Shown: piece by piece, positions 41,641-42,764 of the stretch
Layout: each line of letters starts with the position of its first letter
Numbering within the stretch: position 1 is the first letter of the stretch
Assembly (NCBI GenBank): GCA_023665905.1
Contig: JAMPDA010000008.1
Coordinates: 1-64,000, forward strand
Direction of reading: 5' to 3'
From: Roseburia sp.
GTDB lineage: Bacteria; Bacillota; Clostridia; Christensenellales; Pumilibacteraceae
Length of the DNA stretch: 64,000 bases
Notes under the pieces: model-generated
What the model saw: only the letters and a program-made list of their open reading frames with translations
Databases searched by the model: none
Told to the model about the DNA's origin: nothing
Program-made: the position numbers and the translations under genes

Positions 41641-42108
41641 TTACGCAAACAAATTTACGATGTGCTTGCGCTTTTTAACTGCGTACAGATACGTCTTATA
41701 CGCGCCGCTGTTTTTCCTCTGCTCCACCCAAAATAAAACCAAGTCGCTTCGGTCTATCATTGCAAGGTTGCGATAATATATCGCAGTATACCAATAATCG
41801 AATAATTTTGTCGGGCACTCCAACGCCTCGTACTCTTTTCGGATAAACCACCGCGGCGGCTTTCTAAGCTGCTTATCGAGCGCAAAACAAAAAACCCTTT
41901 TGATGTCGAGCTGCGGCTCGGCGTTTTTCTTTTCGGTCACAAGGTCGTAGCACAGACCGTCGAAATCGCTCCTGCCGCCGAACAGGAATGTCCGAACGCC
42001 GTCCGCCACCGCTCTGTCTATCTCCGCTCTCGTCCTTGCTATGAGATCGTCGGTTATATCGACATCGGAATGTCCGAAACACGAGCAAGTCTTTTCTGCC
42101 GTTTCCAT
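41641..42108 (-). CDS. SLOG-fold protein (YpsA/DUF1273-like)
   Basis: 155 residues. CFGHSDVDITDD and FLFGGRSDFDGLCYDLV match the nucleotide-binding loops of the SLOG superfamily, which includes YpsA, LOG-like and DprA-like Rossmann proteins. The C-terminal part DRSDLVLFWVEQRKNSGAYKTYLYAVKK follows the same family pattern. A possible role is binding of a nucleotide-derived ligand. Its ATG touches the T-run of a strong terminator hairpin, and the only ribosome binding site candidate (GGGAG) lies inside that hairpin's 3' arm. Expression should thus depend on read-through or refolding. Confidence 0.8.
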   Translation of the reverse strand: METAEKTCSCFGHSDVDITDDLIARTRAEIDRAVADGVRTFLFGGRSDFDGLCYDLVTEKKNAEPQLDIKRVFCFALDKQLRKPPRWFIRKEYEALECPTKLFDYWYTAIYYRNLAMIDRSDLVLFWVEQRKNSGAYKTYLYAVKKRKHIVNLFA

Positions 42109-42137
42109 AAAAAATGTCGCTCCCGAAGGAACGACAT
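42109..42137 (-). terminator. Terminator or attenuator adjoining the SLOG start codon
   Basis: On the minus strand ATGTCGTTCC, TTCG, GGAGCGACAT form a 10-bp hairpin (42137-42114) with a UUCG tetraloop and one G-U pair, followed by TTTTTT (42114-42109) and immediately by the SLOG ATG. Confidence 0.85.
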
Positions 42138-42299
42138 TATAGCATACCGTCCCTTTGAATGCGACTTCAATTTAGCTATCTCCGAGGAAACAAGACTACC
42201 GGGCGATATAACTACCGACATTAAGTCTTGTGTCCTCAATAAAAAAATATACTACTCCCTTTCGAGAGCGGAGATAATCATTCTTAAATTGAAGTCGCA
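42114..42299 (-). ncRNA. Three-way-junction structured RNA upstream of the SLOG gene
   Basis: The outer stem pairs 42286-42300 with 42159-42173: 15 perfect base pairs, with the RNA 5' end at the predicted transcription start. An inner stem TATCTCCG (42276-42269) pairs with 42184-42177. Two hairpins sit in the junction: CTCUC/GGGAG with a GAAA tetraloop (42268-42255) and a 14-bp stem with one mismatch (42237-42224 with 42197-42184; one position is shared with the inner stem). A 3' tail of about 20 nt leads to the terminator. It has its own promoter (42305-42333), so it is a free-standing RNA or a leader, about 190 nt. Possible identities are a riboswitch or other leader RNA, or a 6S-like RNA. 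None is proven. Confidence 0.7.
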
Positions 42300-42304
42300 T
42301 AGCT

Positions 42305-42333
42305 ATTATAGCACCTTTCATATAAAATATCAA
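42305..42333 (-). promoter_or_regulatory. Promoter of the structured RNA
   Basis: Minus strand TTGATA (42333-42328), 17-nt spacer, TATAAT (42310-42305). The predicted start at about 42299 coincides with the first paired base of the RNA. A second TATAAT-like box (42141-42136) lies just before the terminator, without a -35 box. Confidence 0.85.
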
Positions 42334-42455: not shown

Positions 42456-42764
42456 CTATGCGTTTCCGTCCGATCGCGCGGCGGCGTCCGACTTCGACGT
42501 TTCCGTTTCCGTTTTCGTGGCGTCCGACGCGCCGGCGGCGTTTTCGCCGTTAAACAGTTCGTCCGCGACACTCGCGGCGCTTCCCGAAGCGCTCTGCGGC
42601 GCGGACACTATGCCGAACATCACCAGGATCGAGCACACCGCGTTTATCACCGCGCTTGCCGTGTCGTCGCCTATCTCCACGCCGAACGAGCCGAGCGCCA
42701 AAAACACGGCGCTTATCATGCCCACCCAGAACCCGACGCTTTTGATACGTTCTTTGAGCTTCAT
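42456..42764 (-). CDS. Phage holin, phi LC3/LLH-like
   Basis: 102 residues. The N-terminal KLKERIKSVGFWVGMISAVFLALGSFGVEI, with two hydrophobic segments (about 10-28 and 36-58), matches the class II holin pattern of Firmicute phages. The C-terminal 40 residues are Ala/Ser/Thr/Asp rich and hydrophilic. Holins form lesions in the membrane at a timed moment. No endolysin gene follows, unlike the usual holin-lysin cassette. A GGGAGG site precedes the ATG. It is the last gene of the phage-derived operon before the terminator. Confidence 0.8.
   Translation of the reverse strand: MKLKERIKSVGFWVGMISAVFLALGSFGVEIGDDTASAVINAVCSILVMFGIVSAPQSASGSAASVADELFNGENAAGASDATKTETETSKSDAAARSDGNA

Follow-up and report, generated by a model that had tools for sequence, protein, structure and literature searches.

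What kind of RNA is encoded downstream of a prophage holin gene (42456-42764) and upstream of a 155-aa SLOG-fold gene (41641-42108) on the minus strand of contig JAMPDA010000008.1 from Roseburia sp. (assembly GCA_023665905.1)? Within the window, i.e., the whole 64,000-nt stretch of DNA analyzed here, these two genes are separated by a promoter, an RNA of ~190 nt containing a three-way junction, and a terminator, and every element previously described for this locus has been confirmed. An earlier interpretation of the locus (the sequence-only reading) had proposed either a riboswitch-type attenuator or a stand-alone RNA followed by read-through, with a 6S-like RNA as the main alternative. Comparison with relatives now makes it very likely that the RNA is a cis-acting transcription attenuator of the orphan-riboswitch type, in which a switching segment, X', would be held in a pseudoknot in the OFF state and would be free in the ON state.

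The unit begins with a promoter (42305-42333; all features are on the minus strand), in which a -35 element, TTGATA (42333-42328), is followed after a 17-nt spacer by TATAAT (42310-42305), with a TG before the -10 (extended -10, TGC). The promoter is present, and calling it perfect went slightly too far, as its -35 element matches five of the six consensus positions. A -10-like box just upstream of the outer stem, P1, is found in 97% of 72 independently found relatives, relative to 31% of control positions. P1 itself begins near the expected transcription start and comprises 16 bp (42300-42285 with 42174-42159), and compensatory changes that preserve it, by which the stem was to be checked, are seen in relatives. 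Inside P1, the predicted fold contains P1b (TATCTCC, 42270-42276, with GGAGATA, 42177-42183), the GAAA-loop hairpin P2 (42255-42268), which serves as the junction's third arm in this subclass only, and the long hairpin P3, with 13 pairs and one mismatch (42237-42224 with 42197-42184). Between P2 and P3 lies a U-rich, single-stranded stretch (42238-42251) that recurs among the relatives compared within the subclass. Downstream of P1 are X' (42139-42158), an intrinsic terminator hairpin with a UUCG loop (42113-42138), and the terminator's T-run (42109-42114), which abuts the ATG at 42108. The outer stem, GAAA hairpin, 13-pair hairpin, and UUCG terminator with its T-run touching the SLOG start codon are, as such, all where the sequence-only reading had placed them. 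The window's RNA folds with an energy of -75.9 kcal/mol (z -7.8), which none of 200 shuffles matched, and 26 of the 29 non-redundant relatives in its subclass are likewise predicted to form the three-way junction. A perfect extended -10 (TGCTATAAT, 42147-42139, minus strand), a copy of the promoter's own, is also seen inside X' and is not conserved in relatives. The RNA (42276-42263) is also perfectly complementary over 14 nt to part of the SLOG coding sequence (42019-42032), a match that is absent in a close relative (G010) and is probably due to chance.

Three features go beyond the initial description, namely a pseudoknot, an antiterminator, and a small apical hairpin, P4. The pseudoknot was found by comparing relatives and involves pairing of a P3 loop motif, GGUAGnnAUACCGUUCC, with X' just 3' of the outer stem. 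In the window's apical loop (42201-42217), P4 (CGGUA-GUUA-UAUCG, 42217-42204) overlaps the pseudoknot strand GGUAGUUAUAUCGCCC (42216-42201), the partner of which is 42153-42140 of X'. A model of the pseudoknot and terminator (R1) was built from 11 seeds, in which both sides change in 7 of 14 pseudoknot pairs and 92% of cells are paired in the combined structure, compared with 35-57% in slid controls. On average (z -2.7), the cognate loop-X' duplex is also more favorable than one with shuffled X'. The pseudoknot of the window does not stand out when considered by itself (z -1.7; 13 of 200 shuffles do as well), and it is the family that carries the case for the pseudoknot. Among 72 further members, found mostly by a model (R3) that includes no pseudoknot or loop information, the cognate X'-loop duplex is significant at p<=0.05 in 69% and at p<=0.01 in 42%. 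P4 uses bases of the pseudoknot strand in 45 of 48 earlier members and in all 72 further ones, and a GGTAG in the P3 apical loop is invariant in 11/11 seeds. As in riboswitches, then, a conserved folded domain (P1, P3, P4, and the pseudoknot) precedes the expression platform. In many of the class-level relatives (L225-L244), the apical hairpin is strongly conserved as GGGAAAAUAC-UUUGGYAAAAG-GUGUUUUCUC and occurs together with an X' containing CACUUUUU; this combination is possibly a recognition element.

The same X' also takes part in a second structure. Its 5' part pairs with the 5' arm of the terminator, while the 3' strand of P1 pairs with the terminator's 3' arm (GTCGC, 42165-42161, with GCGAC, 42120-42116), and the two pairings together form an antiterminator. 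In an alignment of 46 sequences (A3), 11 of the 12 antiterminator pairs change on both sides, with 69 such cells relative to 29.8 in shuffles; cells and sequences are related, so that these covariation and fold counts do not represent independent events. The covariation score is 0.388, compared with 0.238 for shuffled and 0.08-0.15 for slid versions, and 85% of cells are paired in A3, compared with 32-56% when the pairing is slid. The terminator pairs covary too, using the same bases in another pairing, and since both pairings covary, both structures are probably under selection. When the 3' segment is folded in isolation, the lowest-energy structure is the antiterminator for 41 of 48 members (85%); it is not the best fold in the other seven, even with X' free. 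The rate falls to 2.8% when X' is shuffled, to 0.8% when X' and the P1 strand are both shuffled, and to 20% when another member's strands are swapped in. As in attenuators, a terminator lies between promoter and gene, and a conserved antiterminator is mutually exclusive with it. Such mutually exclusive pairings, and their conservation, are established by comparison of sequences, and the earlier idea of a riboswitch-type attenuator has accordingly gained good support from covariation of all three pairings (P1 3' strand with terminator, X' with terminator, and X' with loop) and from the rarity of the antiterminator in shuffles.

From these pairings we infer actual switching, its direction, and a role for P4 as the sensor, along the following lines. 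P1 and P3 would form first, and X' would emerge afterwards. In the OFF state, P1 would close the junction and X' would be captured by the P3 loop, the resulting pseudoknot spanning about 9-20 bp, allowing the terminator to form and transcription to stop before the ATG. In the ON state, the loop would be held as P4 or otherwise blocked, and X' would be left waiting for the terminator arm; free X' and the P1 3' strand would then pair with the terminator's 5' and 3' arms, respectively, generating a long antiterminator hairpin and enabling the polymerase to read through. Because P4 and the pseudoknot share loop bases, a stabilizer of P4, whether a ligand, a protein, or another RNA, would be expected to free X' and turn the gene on. 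In the SLOG-linked subclass, translation may be controlled as well, since a Shine-Dalgarno candidate (GGGAG, 42124-42120) resides in the 3' arm of the terminator, and opening of the terminator should help to free the ribosome binding site. In the window, this site is still weakly paired within the antiterminator; in members such as G004, the antiterminator leaves an AAGGA unpaired. A ribosome binding site locked in the terminator hairpin, as noted initially for the window, applies to SLOG-type members and does not extend to most others, which have a separate Shine-Dalgarno sequence. Since the proposed pairings predict sharp mutational effects, both mechanism and ligand are directly testable.

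The RNA belongs to a real and widespread family that is very probably cis-regulatory. A DNA search of 100 related genomes gave partial matches, most of which, on reading, turned out to be complete RNAs sharing this layout, located before SLOG genes and other genes; the relatives with names are uncultured Clostridia MAGs. R1 and a finder model (R2) together uncovered many further copies in the family; R2 was used for locus finding only, never as structural evidence. R3, derived from the antiterminator segments of 46 sequences, matched 73 of the 297 genomes sampled in the order, spanning 28 genera with as many as 9 copies per genome, and, at a stricter cutoff, 36 of 391 sampled genomes of the class (23 genera). 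In a phylum-wide sample of 398 genomes searched at the stricter cutoff, the sole match was the window's own genome; the 397 others, which gave none, serve as a negative control. The family also occurs in a human-gut phage record, MT835511, which carries the RNA before a SLOG gene. Searches of viral contigs with the SLOG protein, the L3 motif, and X' patterns yielded no true relatives, and nine motif matches failed R3. In Rfam 15, the window's RNA matched no family at the gathering cutoff and nothing relevant at permissive thresholds, and 52 related loci gave no above-cutoff match at the RNA; a DUF2800 match was dismissed as far below threshold (17.9 bits; cutoff 60.2) and on the wrong strand. 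No description of the family was found in a literature search that left supplements and subscription journals outside its scope. Apparently, then, this is a large and undescribed RNA family scattered through Clostridia genomes. A mobile-element origin was rejected because the copies are not repeats: they have diverged strongly, and compensatory changes maintain them.

The genes behind the RNA are diverse. At 85 of the 95 loci examined, the terminator is followed by an ORF on the same strand that has a Shine-Dalgarno-like sequence, and by a simple pattern rule about 48 of the 95 are lipoprotein-like; about a dozen are SLOG-like, and the rest encode zinc-ribbon, membrane, and unknown proteins. 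The window's genome alone possesses three clear copies, two of which (L113 and L114; G000:C47, about 50.1 kb and 72.5 kb) each precede a predicted secreted lipoprotein. The three-way-junction subclass is the SLOG-linked one, outside the order too (L226), and SLOG genes mostly start 0-4 nt from the T-run, while the start codons of other genes mostly lie 15-40 nt away. Three loci (L087, L089, and L118) have no clear same-strand gene nearby. Complete promoter-RNA-terminator units in tandem were seen before SLOG genes at L159 (G211:C27:9800-11450; four), L164 (G309; two), and L160 (G175; three), where intermediate copies precede ATG-TAA or truncated SLOG genes and retain their stems despite divergence. 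Such copies, with no intact gene directly behind them, could point to a trans role. At L006, L009, L014, and L015 (G004, G007), the SLOG gene behind the RNA is replaced by one for an uncharacterized protein of at least 100 aa with the motif YAVERVAFGYEKP, for which a PHROG match was not found. Finally, the L239 and L242 copies precede an AbrB-like protein (MTVNIDGxGRxVIPKEYREEFNL), a possible transcription regulator.

The SLOG assignment of the window's gene is made at the level of fold. Pfam and NCBIfam searches with the 155-aa protein gave no match above threshold, and the protein is considered a SLOG member because an AlphaFold model (built from four aligned sequences; pLDDT 79) matches YpsA, DprA, and ThsA SLOG structures in Foldseek, including YpsA (2nx2; E 2.5e-6) and, more weakly, the ThsA SLOG domain (7uxs; E 1.2e-3), as well as Moco carrier proteins. 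It shares this fold with YpsA, DprA, LOG, and ThsA proteins and differs from the solved structures in being a stand-alone protein of 155 aa, with 10-16% identity to the best of them. Upstream on the same strand are phage genes such as those for portal, major head, and holin proteins, while on the far side of SLOG there are TetR and ABC genes, so that the RNA-SLOG unit would appear to sit at or near a prophage edge. Accessory genes are often found at prophage edges.

Several other explanations might account for this arrangement. One is a small RNA that stands alone and works in trans, with steady leakage past the terminator accounting for expression of the gene downstream. It would be consistent with the promoter and terminator that flank each copy and with the diverged tandem copies (four in G211, two in G309, and three in G175) that keep their structure without an intact gene between them. 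A terminated small RNA, however, needs no antiterminator that destroys its own terminator, yet the antiterminator covaries, and the 85 of 95 copies placed before a same-strand ORF with a Shine-Dalgarno-like sequence also make a trans-acting RNA unlikely. The same reasoning bears on the 6S-like RNA initially regarded as the main alternative, as 6S RNA has no need of an antiterminator. Resemblance to 6S RNA (ssrS) is limited to a length near 190 nt and closed ends, whereas the window's RNA has a three-way junction, a pseudoknot, an antiterminator, and a gene directly behind it. Matches to 6S (RF00013) were absent both at the gathering cutoff and at E values up to 5, and 6S RNA was rejected.

The perfect extended -10 within the window's X' (TGC-TATAAT, 42147-42139) raises the prospect of an internal promoter, from which a SLOG mRNA would start within the terminator arm with its ribosome binding site free, the upstream RNA being a separate entity. 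This is very unlikely, as the likeness to a -10 is not conserved in relatives (CTAC, TATGGT, and others), two pairings already constrain X', and a suitably spaced -35 is not apparent. A type III toxin-antitoxin arrangement, in which the RNA would be the antitoxin and SLOG the toxin, is suggested by the order of promoter, RNA, terminator, and gene, by the pseudoknotted RNA, and by the RNA copies that some genomes carry in tandem ahead of SLOG, and is nonetheless highly improbable; the RNA lacks short tandem antitoxin repeats, the product has a SLOG fold where a ToxN/TenpN/CptN-type RNase would be the criterion, the antiterminator is conserved, and the family also precedes secreted lipoproteins and other unrelated proteins. 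Least probable is a leader-peptide attenuator operating through ribosome stalling. It shares the terminator/antiterminator logic, and two relatives have weak, sub-threshold Phe_leader matches (32.9 and 29.1 bits; cutoff 55). P1, however, starts near the transcription start and so leaves no room for a ribosome binding site, and a Shine-Dalgarno sequence with a short ORF occurs inside the RNA in only 15% of 72 members.

With a cis-acting attenuator as the preferred reading, the nature of the signal can be considered. The sequence-only reading had called ligand-controlled expression attractive but unproven, given that the SLOG family binds nucleotide-derived ligands. An RNA that is specific to SLOG and senses such a nucleotide is not supported by comparison, in that the same family precedes lipoproteins, zinc-ribbon proteins, and membrane proteins. 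A SLOG-specific ligand is unlikely to explain a family found before such unrelated genes, and a general signal, one that involves the cell surface as well, is the better fit. That the genes are unrelated while the stems are conserved runs counter to the outcome in which unrelated genes would have been accompanied by no conserved stem. More tentatively, and with rather more doubt than conviction, it may be proposed that the family is a new riboswitch class, spread across the class Clostridia and at least one phage, in which P4, with its GGUA-type loop, would sense a shared cellular signal, e.g., a nucleotide second messenger, and control surface lipoproteins and phage SLOG proteins through competition among P4, the long pseudoknot, and the antiterminator. 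If this family, absent from Rfam, is a switch, it would rank among the more widespread orphan riboswitch candidates left, occurring in about a quarter of the order's sampled genomes and in 23 genera of the class, and its targets suggest a shared signal linking the cell envelope with phage accessory genes.

Known systems offer two points of comparison. The c-di-GMP riboswitches of Clostridioides difficile occur in several copies per genome, before surface and adhesin genes and also in prophages (PMC11477304). The distribution of the present family over surface genes and prophages recalls these riboswitches by analogy only; unlike them, it has another architecture and does not match their Rfam models. 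In ZTP/pfl and fluoride riboswitches, a pseudoknotted aptamer is followed by an intrinsic terminator, and strand displacement determines whether read-through or termination ensues (PMC10085676, PMC11077080). The family likewise has an aptamer-like, pseudoknotted domain followed by an intrinsic terminator. It differs from ZTP/pfl and fluoride riboswitches in having no sequence or Rfam match to them, in its pseudoknot of about 9-20 bp, the sequence of which changes freely, and in the exchanges proposed here, with X' passing between loop and terminator and a strand of the outer stem exchanging with the other terminator arm.
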